Positions 3,523-18,348 of a stretch of 35,680 bases of DNA are shown one piece after another (within the stretch, counting starts at the first letter, position 1; each line of letters begins with the position of its first letter). The position numbers and the translations under genes are program-made. Origin of the DNA: a virus; IMG/VR virus record IMGVR_UViG_3300045016_000030, positions 1-35,680 of that record. The stretch is one strand, 5' to 3'. A model generated the notes under the pieces. That model made no database searches. It worked only from the letters and a program-made list of their open reading frames with translations, and was not told where the DNA came from.

Positions 3523-3986
3523 ACGACTTTGATAAAAACACTAATGCCGTTATGGGTATGTACTATGAATATTTGGGTTATGAAATAATCCAAGAAGCTC
3601 CAGCGAGAGTATTTGATGACTGGGATCGTATACTCAAAGTTAAAGGAGAGTTAGTTAAAGTAGAAGAAAAAGCGAGGAGGGGGGAATATGATGATGTTCT
3701 TGTAGAGTTAATCGAAGATCTAAAGACTGGTGATCTAGGGTGGATATACCAAACAAAAGCCGATAAGCTGATTTATTCTTTTTTTGATAACAAAGGCAAA
3801 AATCCAAATAAGATCTACATGTTCGATATGGAAACAATCAAAAATTATTTGTTTAATAACATAAAGGAACTGATACATAATAGTAATATTTCACCGAAGG
3901 GTTATGGGCTAACTTTGAACGTTTTTTTACCACTTAAGTTAGGAAAACTAATTTATATAGCCAAGGGAAACTTAGATAACGTGTGA
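3519..3986 (+). CDS. Putative PD-(D/E)XK nuclease-like protein
   Basis: A 155-residue protein translationally coupled (ATGA) to the MT-A70 methyltransferase. It has a possible nuclease core: an N-terminal helix (MYYEYLGYEII), an acidic strand (FDDWDRILKV, D36), then LVKVEEKAR with an E49-x-K51 pair, and GWIYQTKADKLIYSF. That order resembles small PD-(D/E)XK enzymes. I cannot confirm activity. Sitting directly after a DNA methyltransferase it could be the cutting partner of a compact restriction-modification pair, but a non-catalytic role is equally possible. Confidence 0.45.
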   Translation: MNDFDKNTNAVMGMYYEYLGYEIIQEAPARVFDDWDRILKVKGELVKVEEKARRGEYDDVLVELIEDLKTGDLGWIYQTKADKLIYSFFDNKGKNPNKIYMFDMETIKNYLFNNIKELIHNSNISPKGYGLTLNVFLPLKLGKLIYIAKGNLDNV

Positions 3987-4007
3987 GGCTATGATTTACA
4001 AAAAGTA

Positions 4008-4230
4008 TTGACCTAGCAGGCATGTCCGCCCAATAGACGCAACGGGAAGCGGTGAAACCGAGGCGGAAAGCAAGGGGGCGAGCTACTCAACAGTACGGCA
4101 AGCCAACGTTTATATTTGTACGTTAAACCGCTATTACGGTGATACTCAACGAAAAGAGAAACCCGTTTAGTAAAAACAAATATCGGTTAAAAAACAAGTC
4201 TAACCCTCCTAGTAGGGTGGGTTCACTATC
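4008..4230 (+). ncRNA. Gene-free stretch with candidate structured RNA
   Basis: The 261 nt between 3987 and 4247 hold no convincing ORF but several pairings: TCCGCC (4025-4030) with GGCGGA (4062-4067) enclosing CGGT-GAA-ACCG; AACGG/CCGTT-type pairing between 4041-4046 and about 4162-4167; AACGT/ACGTT around 4105-4125; ACCG-ctatta-CGGT near 4127-4140; and an ACCCT/AGGGT hairpin near 4204-4218. The word ACTCAAC occurs twice. A TTGACC box at 4008-4013 may be a -35, but no good -10 follows. I searched for tRNA, RNase P, group I and group II core motifs and found none. A structured RNA is a guess from composition and pairing. Confidence 0.3.
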
Positions 4231-4247
4231 TAACAACCGGCAATCAT

Positions 4248-4415
4248 ATGAACCGAGAAGAAGCTAAAGAGTTTGTTAAAAAAGCTATCCTTACCGGAAA
4301 TAAAGCCTATATTCAAAAGGTTTTACTTCATTATCGTAAAGCCTTTTTAGAACCAGAAAAAACGCCGGAAAAGCGCGACATTGTCGAAATTGCCCAAGAA
4401 ATCTTTGAAACTTGA
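4248..4415 (+). CDS. Hypothetical 55-residue basic helical protein
   Basis: A short ORF starting MNREEAKEFVKKAIL and ending DIVEIAQEIFET. It is charged and probably two or three helices; nothing identifies a family. No ribosome site precedes the ATG. It lies between the structured stretch at 4008-4230 and the promoter at 4430, on the coding strand of the surrounding genes. Confidence 0.45.
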   Translation: MNREEAKEFVKKAILTGNKAYIQKVLLHYRKAFLEPEKTPEKRDIVEIAQEIFET

Positions 4416-4429
4416 GGCTATTTTGGTAC

Positions 4430-4458
4430 TTGACAAGGTATTCCATGGGTGTTACCAT
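4430..4458 (+). promoter_or_regulatory. Promoter giving a probably leaderless mRNA
   Basis: TTGACA (4430-4435), 17-bp spacer, TACCAT (4453-4458). The ATG of the zinc-ribbon gene is 7 nt after the -10 box, about where transcription would begin, and no ribosome site is present. Confidence 0.6.
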
Positions 4459-9494: not shown

Positions 9495-10682
9495 ATGCCC
9501 GAAAATGTCTGGAAAATAGATAGGCTCTACGAATGGGACAAGAACCCCAGAACGATTGACCAAAAAGGATTTGCAAGGTTAAAGAGACAACTTCAAACGA
9601 ACAGGGATAGATACGGCAAGTTTCTGTTTAAGCCTCTTTTGATAAACAAAGATGGAATAGTAATCGGGGGAAACATGAGGTTAAGGGCATTGAGAGAGCT
9701 AGGGGCCGAAGAAGTAGAAGTGTCTGTAATCCCAACCGAAAATGAAAGGGAAATGCTGGATATCGCACTAAAAGATAACGATAACGCCGGCAAGACTGAG
9801 AAAGAAGGCTTGTTAAGTTTAATTGAGGAATACCCTGAACTGAAACTAGACGATTATGCGGTTCACCTAGATACCCCAGAAAGTTTGGTTGATTTTATGG
9901 ATCAATTCAAAGAAATAGAAGAAGACGAAGTACCCGAAGTAGAAGAAGGTGAACCAGATAGTAAACTAGGTAAGGTATATCAGTTAGGAAGGCATAGGTT
10001 GATGTGTGGCGATAGTACCAAGACAGGAGATGTAGAGAAGTTAATGGATGGGAAGAAAGCAGATATGGTATTTACTGATCCGCCGTATGGGATGGATTTG
10101 GATACAGATTACTCAAAGATTAAAGGCTCGGCCAAATTACGAAAAGAAAATCCCGATTTGCCTATCTTGATAGGCAGAAAGTGGAATAAAGTAGTTGGAG
10201 ACGACAAACCTTTTAATGCTTCATTTTTAATTGATTTTGCAGAGGAAGTGTTTCTGTGGGGAGCTGATTATTATAACGATACACTTCCTAATTTTGGTAA
10301 AGATGGATCGTGGTTTGTGTGGGATAAGCGAAGCGAAGAAACAGACGTAATTATTGGTAATACATTTGAATTGTGTTGGTCAAAAAACAAACACAAACGT
10401 CAGATTATTCGTTATAAGTGGGTTGGTGTTTTGGGAATGAGTGGACAAGATAGTAATAAGAGATTGCATCCTACGATGAAACCCATTCAGGTGTGTTCTT
10501 TCTTCATTAATAATTATTCAAAACCAGAAATGATTATTTTAGACCTCTTCGGTGGTTCTGGTTCAACCCTTATCGCCTGTGAACAAACCAACCGTATTTG
10601 TTATATGATGGAAATAGACCCTCACTATTGTGATGTTATAAGAAAACGCTATGAAAACTTTATCAAAAGTAGGAAGACCTGA
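9495..10682 (+). CDS. ParB-like domain fused to DNA methyltransferase
   Basis: A 395-residue fusion. Residues 1-95 are a ParB/Srx-type N-terminal domain (YEWDKNPRTID, FKPLLINKDGIVIGGNMRLR). After an acidic linker (EIEEDEVPEVEEGEPD), residues about 160-395 form a DNA N4-cytosine or N6-adenine methyltransferase: HRLMCGDST, MVFTDPPYGMDL (catalytic DPPY 195-198), HPTMKPIQV and LDLFGGSGSTLIACEQ (SAM binding, near 350). This fusion is common in phages next to terminase genes, where it modifies phage DNA before packaging. The terminase small-subunit gene starts inside its last 32 nt. Confidence 0.85.
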   Translation: MPENVWKIDRLYEWDKNPRTIDQKGFARLKRQLQTNRDRYGKFLFKPLLINKDGIVIGGNMRLRALRELGAEEVEVSVIPTENEREMLDIALKDNDNAGKTEKEGLLSLIEEYPELKLDDYAVHLDTPESLVDFMDQFKEIEEDEVPEVEEGEPDSKLGKVYQLGRHRLMCGDSTKTGDVEKLMDGKKADMVFTDPPYGMDLDTDYSKIKGSAKLRKENPDLPILIGRKWNKVVGDDKPFNASFLIDFAEEVFLWGADYYNDTLPNFGKDGSWFVWDKRSEETDVIIGNTFELCWSKNKHKRQIIRYKWVGVLGMSGQDSNKRLHPTMKPIQVCSFFINNYSKPEMIILDLFGGSGSTLIACEQTNRICYMMEIDPHYCDVIRKRYENFIKSRKT

Positions 10683-12867: not shown

Positions 12868-14685
12868 ATGTCTGAACTTTCCAACCAAATCTTAGACCGT
12901 AAAGAAGCGGCGAGTAATTACCTCTCTACTAAGAGAGATTTGTGGGACAATGTTGAAAAACTCTTTCATGGTCAATTAAACGACCGAATCTCCACTTCAA
13001 CTAAATCTCAAGTCTTTGACCCCAAACTATCCACCTTAACTCTTGAAAGGAGCTATCGGGTAATGGCCCAACTCCCTACTGGTAAGGTCAGGGGTATCTC
13101 GAGGAATGACAAGGGTTCAGAAAAACTGATGAACTTAATTCTGGATAAGTGGGTTTCTCCAAACGCCAACGCCCAATTTGATTTTTTGACCAAACTCCGA
13201 ATGGTTGACCTTTATTCCAACATTTACGGCAACTTCTTCTCTTTAGTTGATTGGGACGTCAGAAAAAATGGCTATATGGGGCCGGATGTATGGCTCTTAA
13301 ACATAAGGGATGTTTTCCCTCAAGTCGGGGCGGTATCGCTAGACGACTCGGACTACGTGATTGTCAGAACATGGAGGCCGCTAAGTTACTTTGAGAACCT
13401 TAAAAAGCAGGACGGCTACAAAAACTTGGGAAGTATTATCCCCAAATTGGAAAAGATTGCCGGAGACAGGGAGAGGAGGAGTTCCGGCGACACTTCTAAG
13501 CGTGAAGAAAATCAATATCCCGAAGAAATCTCCGCCAAGAAGTCAGGTTACTTTGAAGTTTTGACCCAATACGAGAAAGACCGGTGGGTGGATTACTGCG
13601 TGGACGCCAAAATGGAGTTCCGGGATCAGAAAAACCCCCACGACGACGACGAACTCCCCGTACTTTGCAAGTATTCTATTCCCCTCTTAGATGATTTCAT
13701 GGGTTTTGGCGACTTCGAAAGAGGCGCTTCAATGCAGATGGTGGTCAACTCGGTCTGGAATCTCTACTTAGACGCGCTTGAAATTTCTATTTTCCCCCCC
13801 ACTCTCGTCAATAAGGATAATGTTGCCTCTATGAGTTCACTTAAGTGGGGTGCGGCCGAGAAGTGGTTGGTAAGAAATCAAATCAACAACTCTATTCAGC
13901 CGATCCAGCTTTCACCCCAAGGAATAGCCGAATTTAATAACACTTATCGTGTAGCAACCGCCTCAATTCTTAACTTATTTGGCACAACCGATACGGCTGT
14001 AACCCAAGAAACCGAAGCGGGGTTTGGTAAGACCCCTGAAGCCTTGAAAGCCCAAGTTGCTAGGGAAAACACCCGAGATAACGCTGACCGATTCTTTATG
14101 GAGCAATATATAACCAAGCTAATGAGAAAGTTTGCCAACTTAATTTCCAAAAAGCAAAGTAAGGCGATTACCTTTAGGATGTTCGGAGAGGATATTGACG
14201 CGCTTTCGAGGGAATACCCCGAAATTCAAGACCTATACAACGAGAAAACAGGGAAACTTACGATTGATAAGTCCAAAACGGGTTCTACCCTCTACGACTA
14301 CGAAATTGTCAGCGGTTCGACCTATGCCGTTGACCAAAAGAGCCAGCAGGATAACCTTTCAATGCTTTTACAGCTTTACCTCAAGAGCCAGACGCCTCAA
14401 GGGAATATGCTGACTGCCGAGCTTGACCGCGAGGGCTATATCTTAAAGTTCGGGGAAATCTTTAAGCGCATTGTGGCCAATGGCGGGATTCAAGATTGGG
14501 ATAAGATTTTAGTGGAAAAGACCGAGAGTGAAAAGGGAGATACCGTTCTCCAAAATGACACCCAGACGTTTTTGAACGCCTTACAGCAAGTTCAGACGGG
14601 CGGTGTTCAGCAGGTTCCCGCACAGGAGCAACCGGCTCCCGATACGGGAACAATGTTAGCGGGAGCAACAGGAATAACAGGATAA
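12868..14685 (+). CDS. Portal protein
   Basis: A 605-residue protein of the size and place of a phage portal: after terminase, before scaffold and capsid. Features fitting a portal include the N-terminal helical start (QILDRKEAASNYLSTKRDLW), a central region with WLLNIRDVFPQVG and FEVLTQYEKDRWVDY, the long helical GKTPEALKAQVARENTRDNADRFF segment that would form the stem and clip, and a Gln/Pro-rich tail (GGVQQVPAQEQPAPDTG). Twelve copies would form the DNA entry ring. ATG 12868 follows the terminator T-run directly, with no ribosome site; the U-rich tract might instead help ribosome binding. The call rests on layout and general features. Confidence 0.75.
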   Translation: MSELSNQILDRKEAASNYLSTKRDLWDNVEKLFHGQLNDRISTSTKSQVFDPKLSTLTLERSYRVMAQLPTGKVRGISRNDKGSEKLMNLILDKWVSPNANAQFDFLTKLRMVDLYSNIYGNFFSLVDWDVRKNGYMGPDVWLLNIRDVFPQVGAVSLDDSDYVIVRTWRPLSYFENLKKQDGYKNLGSIIPKLEKIAGDRERRSSGDTSKREENQYPEEISAKKSGYFEVLTQYEKDRWVDYCVDAKMEFRDQKNPHDDDELPVLCKYSIPLLDDFMGFGDFERGASMQMVVNSVWNLYLDALEISIFPPTLVNKDNVASMSSLKWGAAEKWLVRNQINNSIQPIQLSPQGIAEFNNTYRVATASILNLFGTTDTAVTQETEAGFGKTPEALKAQVARENTRDNADRFFMEQYITKLMRKFANLISKKQSKAITFRMFGEDIDALSREYPEIQDLYNEKTGKLTIDKSKTGSTLYDYEIVSGSTYAVDQKSQQDNLSMLLQLYLKSQTPQGNMLTAELDREGYILKFGEIFKRIVANGGIQDWDKILVEKTESEKGDTVLQNDTQTFLNALQQVQTGGVQQVPAQEQPAPDTGTMLAGATGITG

Positions 14686-15025: not shown

Positions 15026-15587
15026 AAATTGTTTGGTTTGTAAAAAAGAATTTCGGACATTTCCATATCTTATAAAAAAGGATCAGGGGAAATATTGTTC
15101 TCGTGGGTGTCGCAATAAAGATGGTAATAGTTTTGGGATTCGCTGGATGAAAGGAAATAAAGGAAGGAAACCGTGGATGATATGTCCTTTTAAGAAGGGG
15201 GTGATACCTTGGAATAAAGGATTACGTGGAGTCCAGTCGGGGGAAAAAGCGCCGAACTGGAGGGGTGGTAGAACGGCACTTTATGATTTGATTAGAGGAA
15301 GAGTGGATTATCTGTATATCATGGCGTTGCGTAAAGAAATGGATAATTATACTTGTCAAATCTGTGGGAAAAGAGGTGGCGCATTACATACAGATCACTA
15401 TCCAGTCTCTTTTGCCAAGATAATAATTGAAGAGAATATTGCTAGCATTGAAGATGTGGCGAAAAGCAAGAGATTGATGGACATAAATAATTTGAGAACC
15501 CTTTGTGTTAAATGTCATCGACAAACGAAGACCTATGGAAGACCTGCAAGAGAATCATGCCAAAGACCAGACGGAACCGAAAGATGA
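15015..15587 (+). CDS. HNH homing endonuclease with NUMOD-like repeats
   Basis: A 190-residue protein. An N-terminal zinc-binding part (CLVCKKEF ... YCSRGCRNK) is followed by NUMOD3-like short motifs (MKGNKGRKPW, IPWNKGLRG, KAPNWRGG) that in homing enzymes bind DNA, and then an HNH domain: CQICGKRGGALHTDHYP, DINNLRTLCVKCHRQT. A GAGGAAA site precedes ATG 15015. The gene overlaps both neighbours (11 and 53 nt) and lies at a gene border, not within a visible intron, so it is a free-standing homing endonuclease within the head block. Confidence 0.8.
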   Translation: MHIKNCLVCKKEFRTFPYLIKKDQGKYCSRGCRNKDGNSFGIRWMKGNKGRKPWMICPFKKGVIPWNKGLRGVQSGEKAPNWRGGRTALYDLIRGRVDYLYIMALRKEMDNYTCQICGKRGGALHTDHYPVSFAKIIIEENIASIEDVAKSKRLMDINNLRTLCVKCHRQTKTYGRPARESCQRPDGTER

Positions 15588-15876: not shown

Positions 15877-16626
15877 TTGAGAGATCCAAAAGACAAGGCG
15901 TTAAATGAAGCGGTTGAGGAAGATGTCAACCCAGCGGCCCCGCCAGCCGCGGTAGAAGAAGCAACCGAGGAGGTTGTGGAAACCGAACCTGAAGCGACGG
16001 CTGAAGGCGCGGAGGAAACAACGGAAACGGGGGGAGAGCCAAAGAAAGGCTACTCTCAAAGGGTGCAAGAACTTGCTAATGAGAAGAATGTACTCAAAGA
16101 GCAAGTTAAGTCCTTGCAAGACAAAATTGCGGAACTCACAAGTCCAGTAGGATTGCCGGTCAATCCGGCGTATGAACCGCAAGTGAAACCCGGCTCGGAA
16201 GTAACTCCCGATCAATATCGGGACGATGTCCTTAAGGCGGCAGATGCGATTGTGACACTTCGTGTGAAACAAAGCGAAGCGGCCAACAGGATAAACAACG
16301 AGGCGGCAGATGTCATGCGGACTTATCCAGAGCTTGACCCGGAGAGTGATAGTTTTGACGAGGCTCTTTCCGATGGTGTTACCGAGGCTACGGAAGCCTA
16401 TGTAAAGGCTAACCCGTACACTGCGTCAGTTAAAGGATTTGTGGCAAAACTGATGAAACCTTACAAGGGGGCGGTAACCAAAGAAGTCGGCAAGGCGACA
16501 GAGCAGATTGCGAAACAAGTTTCTGAAGCCGCTCTAAAACCGACTTCTATCCGCAAGGGCGAGAAAACTGCGGAGGAAATGACTCCGGAGGAGCTAGAAC
16601 AAAAGTTAGGAATTGTTCAAAACTAA
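15877..16626 (+). CDS. Scaffold-like protein
   Basis: A 249-residue protein directly upstream of the major capsid gene. It has a very acidic, Ala/Glu/Thr-rich N-terminus, a coiled coil (QRVQELANEKNVLKEQVKSL), a Pro-rich linker, then long helices ending EEMTPEELEQKLGIVQN. These are the usual marks of capsid scaffolding proteins, which guide procapsid assembly and then leave. Initiation is at TTG 15877, supported by the strong ribosome site; ATG and GTG nearby are out of frame. Function is inferred from composition and place. Confidence 0.7.
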   Translation: MRDPKDKALNEAVEEDVNPAAPPAAVEEATEEVVETEPEATAEGAEETTETGGEPKKGYSQRVQELANEKNVLKEQVKSLQDKIAELTSPVGLPVNPAYEPQVKPGSEVTPDQYRDDVLKAADAIVTLRVKQSEAANRINNEAADVMRTYPELDPESDSFDEALSDGVTEATEAYVKANPYTASVKGFVAKLMKPYKGAVTKEVGKATEQIAKQVSEAALKPTSIRKGEKTAEEMTPEELEQKLGIVQN

Positions 16627-16651: not shown

Positions 16652-17454
16652 ATGGCAACAGTTGGTAGTGGAGTTGGTGGGGTAACGAACCCCGTCCTTT
16701 CTGGTGGCGTAATCGCCAATGAGGTGAAAACGTACTACGAGAAGGTCTTTTTGGCTAGGGCGCAATATGCTTTAGTCTTAAAGGAAGGGGGTCAGTTGAG
16801 AACTCATCCGGCAAATGAAGGCCGAACTGTTAATTTTACGCGGAGAACTCCGCAGACAATTATCACTACGCCTTTAGGTGAGCTTTCTAACCCGGTTACC
16901 TGTGTGGTTGATTCCTGTACTGTCGCAATGACTCTTTCGGAGTATGGTCAGACGATCATTACTTCTAAGTTGGCAACCTTGATCGGGATTGATTCCCGAA
17001 TGAAGGAAACCGTAGAGTTGGCGGGTCAGAACATGGGGGAAACCCTAAACAGGTTAGTGAGAGACGAACTGAAGAATGGTACTTCCTTTTACGGGAATGA
17101 CCATGCAGTAACGTCTTTTGCGGCTGGGGATACCCTAGACGCTTGCGATATCAGGGCGATTGTCAAGACGCTTGAGCTTAACAAAGCAAGGGCGTATCCC
17201 GATGGAATGTATATCGGGAAAACCGACCCTATATCCAAGTACAACTTGATCGGGGATTCGACTTGGGTAAATTCTAAGACATATTCTGATGTCAAGGACT
17301 TATACAAGGGCGAGATGGGCGAACTCTATCAAGTCAGATGGCTCTTGAACAAAGACTACGCTTGCGGAACTGAAGCGACGAGTACGGCCTCATCGGGCGT
17401 TATTCGTTTCTACACTTACGTTCACGGCGCGGATTCGTTCGGAGCTTATGACCT
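16652..17454 (+). CDS. Major capsid protein, exon 1 (N4-gp56-like)
   Basis: Residues 1-267 of the major capsid protein. MATVGSGVGGVTNPVLSGGV, the YEKVFLARAQYAL helix, GRTVNFTRRTP, LSEYGQTIITSK and VHGADSFGAYDL are the pattern of the N4-gp56/P22-type coat family in order. A consensus AGAAGGAGGTGAG site precedes ATG 16652. The frame runs on to 17668, but everything after nt 17454 is intron. The exon ends within a codon (CT|) and continues at 18195. Exon 1 (803 nt) plus exon 2 (154 nt) make 957 nt, that is 318 residues and a stop. Confidence 0.85.
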
Positions 17455-17671
17455 TAACAAAATAGGGTCTTTCTGTAGGAATACAGTTAAAAAATTCCGA
17501 GAATTCGGTAGAACTCTTATCAATGAGATAAGACAATACCGAGCCGAACTATCTTTTGAGATAGGAGGTGTACAGACTATGTACGGAATAGCCAGAACGG
17601 CTAAAGATATAGTCGGGACTATGTGGCAACACATAGAAATAGGCAGAAATGTCCTATTCGCACTTTAACAC

Positions 17672-17700
17672 TTGAATAATTATTAGATTGGGTATATACT
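17672..17700 (+). promoter_or_regulatory. Promoter for the intron endonuclease
   Basis: TTGAAT (17672-17677), 17-bp spacer, TATACT (17695-17700), then 9 nt to ATG 17710 without a ribosome site. The endonuclease can thus be made from its own, probably leaderless, transcript, independent of capsid expression. Confidence 0.6.
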
Positions 17701-17709
17701 GTCACAAGT

Positions 17710-18183
17710 ATGACCAATAAAGAGTTTGAGTTTATGGGATATCTCAAGGGTGAAGGTTGTTTTAGGATTTCAAAACAACATAAAAAAAATCACTTGAGGG
17801 TAAATTATAGACCACAAATATCAGTTGCCCAAAGAGCAGATGATACAGGGATACTGGAATGGGCGAAAAAAAGGTTTGGTGGATATTTGGTACATCAAAT
17901 GGGCAGGTTGGATATACCAAACCAGAACCCAAGCGTTACTTGGGTTTTAACCTCGATTAAAACTTGTTATCCAGTAATAAGGATGTTTTTAGAGTCTATG
18001 TTACCAAGTAAAAAGTTTAAGGAGGTGTTGCTCTTAAAGGAGTTCTGTGATTTAAAGTCAAAACCCAAAAAGAAATTTCCTTTTAAAAATGGTCGGTTCT
18101 TTTGGGAATCAGATGGAGATTACAAAAGACAAGAGTGGTTGTTTAGAGAAATATCTAATCTAAAAAAATTCAAGGGTGTGTAG
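17710..18183 (+). CDS. LAGLIDADG homing endonuclease (intron-encoded)
   Basis: A 157-residue protein inside the group I intron, after the P9 region. FMGYLKGEGCFRIS (residues 8-21) is a LAGLIDADG-type motif of the GEG kind, followed by the usual strands (YRPQISVAQRADD, VTWVLTSIKTCY) and helix (ILEWAKKRFGG). Only one such motif is present, so it should act as a homodimer. It would cut intron-less capsid alleles near the exon junction and so spread the intron. The base use is more A/T-rich than the capsid exons, as expected for a mobile insert. Confidence 0.85.
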   Translation: MTNKEFEFMGYLKGEGCFRISKQHKKNHLRVNYRPQISVAQRADDTGILEWAKKRFGGYLVHQMGRLDIPNQNPSVTWVLTSIKTCYPVIRMFLESMLPSKKFKEVLLLKEFCDLKSKPKKKFPFKNGRFFWESDGDYKRQEWLFREISNLKKFKGV

Positions 18184-18194
18184 TAACAAAATCG

Positions 18195-18348
18195 AGAGGG
18201 GGATCAGCCTAAGCTCTATATTCTTCCGAATGCGGTTGACTCTAACTCTCCGGCAGGACGTGTTTCTTACGTTAGCTGGGCAGGGAGTTACGCGGCGAAG
18301 ATTTTGAACTCGAGTTGGGTAATCACAGCCCGGTTCTCGGTCACGTAA
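18195..18348 (+). CDS. Major capsid protein, exon 2
   Basis: The coding sequence resumes as EGDQPKLYILPNAVDSNSPA, then GRVSYVSWAGSYAAKILNSS and WVITARFSVT before TAA at 18346-18348. The R-x-x-W-x-x-x-Y-A-A-K-I-L ending is the usual C-terminus of N4-gp56-like coat proteins and is missing from the unspliced frame. The first base completes the Leu codon begun in exon 1. A stop at 18184-18186 in this frame just upstream shows that it cannot be translated without splicing. Confidence 0.82.

Follow-up and report, generated by a model that had tools for sequence, protein, structure and literature searches.

The window analysed here, 35,680 bases long, is the entire record IMGVR_UViG_3300045016_000030 of an uncultured phage. 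It includes a tailed-phage structural region in which the capsid gene begins at position 16652, and the ORF at 15877-16626 sits where a scaffold gene is usually located, so that by position it would encode the scaffold (Table 1). At 9495-10682, ahead of the packaging genes, lies a gene for a ParB-like/DNA methyltransferase fusion protein (phrog_498, E 9e-83). Beyond the capsid region, diverged direct repeats with 72-78% identity (19140-19272/19313-19445 and 19524-19612/19872-19960) are found immediately 5' of and within a 792-aa ORF.

Table 1. Coordinates of the features at the interrupted capsid locus, as positions in the window.
Feature	Position	Strand	Description	Basis
Record IMGVR_UViG_3300045016_000030	entire window		35,680 bases, uncultured phage	
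Portal-like protein	12868-14685		tailed-phage structural region	
Capsid exon 1	16652-17454	+	residues 1-267 and two bases of codon 268	
Group I intron	17455-18194	+	740 nt	RF00028; frame and relatives set both ends
P1 GACCUU/AGGGUC	17450-17469	+	splice after U17454; U17454.G17465 wobble	sequence, cmscan alignment, fold
P2 hairpin CUGUA-GGAA-UACAG	17473-17486	+	GNRA loop	sequence, fold
Catalytic core	17494-17614	+		cmscan alignment
P3	17494-17499/17584-17589	+		cmscan alignment
P4-P6	about 17501-17568	+		cmscan alignment
P7	17575-17579/17610-17614	+		cmscan alignment
P8	17590-17602	+		cmscan alignment
AAAGATATAGTC	17603-17614	+	within core	
P9	17619-17636	+	GCAA (GNRA) loop	fold
P9.1 AATAGG/CCTATT	17638-17658	+		fold
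P9.2-like stem	17661-18182	+	5' side about 17661-17690, 3' side about 18156-18182	loop contains endonuclease ORF
LAGLIDADG homing endonuclease ORF	17710-18183	+	157 aa, single-motif	PF00961
Capsid exon 2	18195-18348	+	last base of codon 268, residues 269-318 and the stop codon	tblastn of 318-aa protein (residues 269-318); uninterrupted relatives

The capsid gene is divided into two exons. The first is preceded by a strong Shine-Dalgarno sequence (AAGGAGGTG), matches the major head protein of PHROG 1357 (phrog_1357, E 1.6e-28) and on its own scores 93.5 bits against the N4-gp56 major capsid model TIGR04387 (capsid_maj_N4; cut-off 60), while the second lacks a start codon. Excision of 17455-18194 joins 17454 to 18195, which reads GAYDLEGDQPKLYIL, and results in an N4-gp56-type capsid protein of 318 aa with the C-terminus ...YAAKILNSSWVITARFSVT. 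This is the spliced product that an earlier note on this DNA had predicted, and the reading frame, TIGR04387 and 79 uninterrupted relatives agree with it. Without splicing, the ORF at 16652-17668 would give 338 aa, the final 70 being intron-encoded (71 in the earlier note); no relative listed continues in this way, and the false C-terminus claimed for the naive ORF is thus borne out. An annotation unaware of the intron is wrong for both parts of this gene, giving the naive ORF a false C-terminus and leaving exon 2 without a start. From this anatomy it follows that capsid output would depend on splicing, itself a predicted event. An AlphaFold model of the capsid protein (25 aligned rows) reached a pLDDT of 31, is unusable and supports nothing.

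The intron RNA and its open reading frame

A cmscan search of the entire window against Rfam returned exactly one match, to the group I intron family RF00028, at 17445-17636 on the + strand (70.2 bits, gathering score 50, E 5e-16), with the model complete from 1 to 253. The covariance search had been proposed in the earlier note as a check on its group I assignment, which is thereby upheld. The segment 17445-17640 folds with a minimum free energy of -62.5 kcal/mol (z = -6.95), none of 200 shuffled sequences being equally stable; a nested fold cannot hold the crossing of P3 and P7, and these two helices rest on the cmscan alignment. The complete model and the fold agree with the core helices drawn beforehand, and the wobble at the 5' splice site and the GNRA loops of P2 (GGAA) and P9 (GCAA) are likewise present.

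Both boundaries can be fixed to the base. The 5' splice site is placed after U17454 because P1 carries the U17454.G17465 pair, exon 1 thus ending in U, and the 3' splice site is placed at G18194, the final base of the intron, because three lines concur: the frame, the sequences of the relatives and a terminal G. Group I chemistry requires both the U.G pair in P1 and the terminal G. An alternative join at 17455/18195 would yield the identical protein but has neither the U.G pair nor the terminal G. A point against the proposed splicing is that inspection reveals no clear P10 in the window intron, in which AGAGG of exon 2 does not pair with AAAAUA 5' of the guide, whereas a 5-bp P10 is present in the intron of a related contig (L083); P10 is not universal in group I introns. 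The 9-mer TAACAAAAT occurs twice in the window intron, at its very start (17455-17463) and near its end (18184-18192), at least 9 bases in common being found in 0.04% of random 15-mer pairs drawn within the intron; in the other capsid introns it is found, exactly or nearly, at the 3' end only.

The ORF contained in the intron encodes a LAGLIDADG endonuclease, as had been stated, scoring 38.5 bits against PF00961 (LAGLIDADG_1; cut-off 23.1), with the motif FMGYLKGEGCF in which the acidic residue is retained (GEG). It also matches phrog_5046 (E 1.8e-10), a family labelled 'HNH endonuclease' in PHROGs, apparently a mislabel. The ORF is placed within P9.2 because the flanking segments pair (duplex fold of -18.4 kcal/mol) and because in the L090 intron the same flanks (TTCGCACTTTAA...GTGTAGTAACAAAATTG) enclose a simple P9.2 hairpin. 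Single-motif LAGLIDADG proteins act as homodimers, and by analogy the window endonuclease is probably one as well. Its single-sequence AlphaFold model has a pLDDT of 36, is unusable and supports nothing.

Capsid genes of related phages

At the insertion site of the window, codon 268 (site C), all 79 of the IMG/VR relatives listed (L003-L081, within the best 80 of 128-163) show one unbroken alignment across codon 268|269. The locus search was ranked by alignment quality, which over-represents intron-less relatives, and the frequency of the intron therefore cannot be read from these counts. The closest intron-less alleles among the matches listed (L003, L004 and L005, 84-86% identical) read ...YDLEGDQPKLYIL, and their junction peptide DLEGDQPKLYIL is identical to that of the spliced frame. 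The earlier note had proposed a comparison with intron-less relatives as a check, and 79 of the 79 listed follow the spliced frame. In one of them, L035 (300-600), the capsid ORF seems to lack its start and to continue in frame from the ORF 5' of it, through a deletion or an assembly error. The intron itself was found intact in a second IMG/VR contig, L002, with 3 mismatches to the window in 8801 bp (99.97% identity) and none in the intron; all three differences sit within 9 bases, at window positions 15374-15382. Among the matches listed, this near-identical contig is the only other virus with the intron at site C, which makes homing between divergent phages at this site a prediction.

A distinct scenario results from the remainder of the capsid gene, as related phages carry LAGLIDADG introns at three further sites (A, D and B), after residues ~27, ~129 and ~221, respectively. 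Besides the window, interruptions are present in eight contigs (L083, L090, L075, L092, L093, L182, L176 and L192) from about seven lineages, and L093, L176 and L192 have two insertions in the one capsid gene. L083 is a contig of a bacterial MAG, L091/L177 are the same contig as L075, and L092/L188 is a sister contig.

Site A was traced from relatives whose alignment begins only at residue 26-29. Its insertions (645-676 nt; L083, L090, L075 with its sister contig L092, L093, L182 and L176) follow GACCT, or GACGT in L075, where a compensatory change in P1 gives GACGU/GCGUC in place of GACCU/GGGUC. Five of them end in GTAACA..A.TTG, followed by ATTA(C/T)GA, whereas L182 ends in AACAAAATG, and joining of the exons restores TYYEKVFL or TYYERVFL. 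The encoded proteins form one family of 147-155 aa with the motif WLAGIIDGEGS, their ORF lying 5' of P7; the family falls below the Pfam cut-off, its LAGLIDADG assignment being drawn from weak matches to profiles together with the motif. In L093 (2398-3042), intact intron boundaries enclose a site-A endonuclease ORF whose frame is broken, apparently a decaying homing gene beside an intact LAGLIDADG intron at about 3621-4438. The latter insertion lies at site B (YRG|EMGELYQ), has the core motifs GTAGAGACTA and GAAGATATAGTCC and encodes a PF03161 LAGLIDADG_2 protein (79.6 bits, cut-off 25); L192 carries at the same start point a near-identical protein, cut by the contig end. Site D, at QNMG|ETLNRL, is occupied by insertions of 685 nt in L176 and 678 nt in L192, which have a LAGLIDADG motif and whose removal restores the frame. 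The A, D and B introns (L083, L090, L075/L092, L093, L182, L176 and L192) obey the same boundary rules as the window intron. The Rfam scores of the site-A and site-B introns lie below the cut-off (24 bits in one search), and they are called introns because core motifs are conserved, the boundaries follow the rules and the reading frame is restored.

Because related phages have LAGLIDADG introns at these three additional sites, the capsid gene has apparently been colonised repeatedly, as a recurrent landing gene for introns. This multi-site pattern is of more interest than the single element: one short and highly expressed phage gene has four intron sites, all of LAGLIDADG type and not of the HNH or GIY-YIG type usual in phages, and with four sites and many intron-less relatives, intron gain, loss and ectopic movement become testable by comparison.

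Predicted splicing, mobility and possible descent

We are highly confident that codon 268 of this tailed-phage capsid gene is split by a group I intron, predicted to be self-splicing and probably mobile, whose P9.2 region contains a LAGLIDADG gene. The intron and its ORF are recognised by family models, and both boundaries and the intron-less alleles are observed here; splicing, cleavage and homing of the window intron are what we infer. In the proposed course of events, guanosine would attack the RNA after U17454, the freed exon 1 would in turn attack after G18194, and the joined message would give the 318-aa coat protein. The endonuclease, probably as a dimer, would cut site C in related, co-infecting phages whose capsid gene has no intron, and repair would then copy the intron into the cut allele.

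The principal alternative, which we consider unlikely, is that the intron splices yet is immobile, its endonuclease being inactive or serving only as a maturase that aids RNA folding. Thermotoga has a LAGLIDADG intron protein that resembles a maturase (PMC3984707), and the window ORF offers further points in this direction. No Shine-Dalgarno sequence precedes its ATG (17710), as opposed to AAGGAGGTG before the capsid gene. The promoter of its own with which the ORF had been credited is not substantiated either: the match at 17672-17700 belongs to a set of 5 sigma-70-like ones, when shuffled sequences give 3.9 ± 2.1, and its -10 box ends at 17700, leaving about 9 nt to the ATG. Moreover, a search of viral contigs, phages, plasmids and 97 bacterial genomes for relatives of the endonuclease returned only itself (L082) and one weak match (E 1e-3). 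Against immobility, the ORF is intact, retains the acidic residue of its motif and scores well above the Pfam cut-off, and the ORFs at the other sites are intact except that at site A of L093, so that decay is visible where present.

It appears rather improbable, if conceivable, that the capsid lineage has been a serial target at four sites in which the site-C intron is an ectopic site-A-type intron that later acquired an unrelated P9.2 endonuclease. Such a movement is proposed because the same exon sequence (GACCT) and the same guide (GGGUC) occur at sites A and C, which may reflect ectopic movement or chance. The A and D introns also have their 3' domain and 3'-terminal sequence in common with the window intron. 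An nhmmer profile built from the 3' domains of the A and D introns has a single significant match in the window, at 17597-17663 (E 8.5e-7, calculated for one genome), and the window terminus GTAACAAAATCG nearly equals the site-A terminus GTAACAAAATTG. The same type of 3' domain is present, however, in unrelated loci and in the nrdB intron of Pseudomonas phage HHBS10_2, and therefore denotes a shared class and not descent among the capsid introns. In a comparison of the window endonuclease with the site-A family (hhalign), the motif alone aligns (probability 0.3%) and homology is not detectable. A search of viral contigs with the core pattern CAGACTAN{25,50}TAAAGATATAGTC gave one match, in L084, which was dismissed as due to chance.

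That the capsid gene truly ends at 17668, a 338-aa readthrough protein being the functional coat and the downstream pieces having decayed, is highly improbable: the frame does run on through about 70 intron codons, but these overlie a complete group I core, such a continuation is found in none of the 79 relatives L003-L081 (of the best 80 of 128-163), the exon-2 sequence is present in all 79 listed, and exon 2 of the window retains the residues conserved in them. An assembly chimera would be suggested by a metagenomic record with few copies, but is hardly credible for an insertion with precise, splice-compatible boundaries in two separate IMG/VR contigs that are 99.97% identical over 8.8 kb.

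Comparison with known systems

Taken alone, the intron of the window is of an already known kind, the precedent being mycobacteriophage LittleE, in which splicing of a capsid intron was proven by RT-PCR and N-terminal sequencing and of which the counterpart Omega has no intron (PMC3706429). As in the window, the LittleE intron lies in the major capsid gene, follows a U, ends in G and contains a LAGLIDADG-type ORF; it differs in having this ORF on the opposite strand, in being only 'most likely' of group I, and in belonging to another phage and host group (PMC3706429). PMC3706429 further cites an intron in the capsid gene of lactococcal phage Tuc2009.

Introns of the T4, SPO1 and Twort type are self-splicing, as the window intron is predicted to be, and resemble it in carrying an endonuclease gene and in interrupting an essential phage gene, whereas their endonucleases are mostly GIY-YIG or H-N-H. 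Among phage group I introns, LAGLIDADG proteins are reported to be less common than those of the GIY-YIG and HNH types (PMC3984707, PMC12363816), as in the Jug phages with 17 LAGLIDADG versus 505 HNH (PMC12363816), although they do occur in phage introns (PMC11878797). The HHBS10_2 nrdB intron (PQ287653) encodes a LAGLIDADG protein and is 82% identical to the window intron over 49 nt from P7 to P9.1, but it interrupts a ribonucleotide reductase gene and has its ORF 5' of the P7 3' strand and not in P9.2. For LAGLIDADG introns at multiple sites of one capsid gene, no description was found in a non-exhaustive literature search. The site-A, D and B introns share with that of the window the capsid gene and LAGLIDADG ORFs, and site A also the guide GGGUC; they differ from it in their insertion points, in the location of the site-A ORF 5' of P7 and in the PF03161 type of the site-B ORF.
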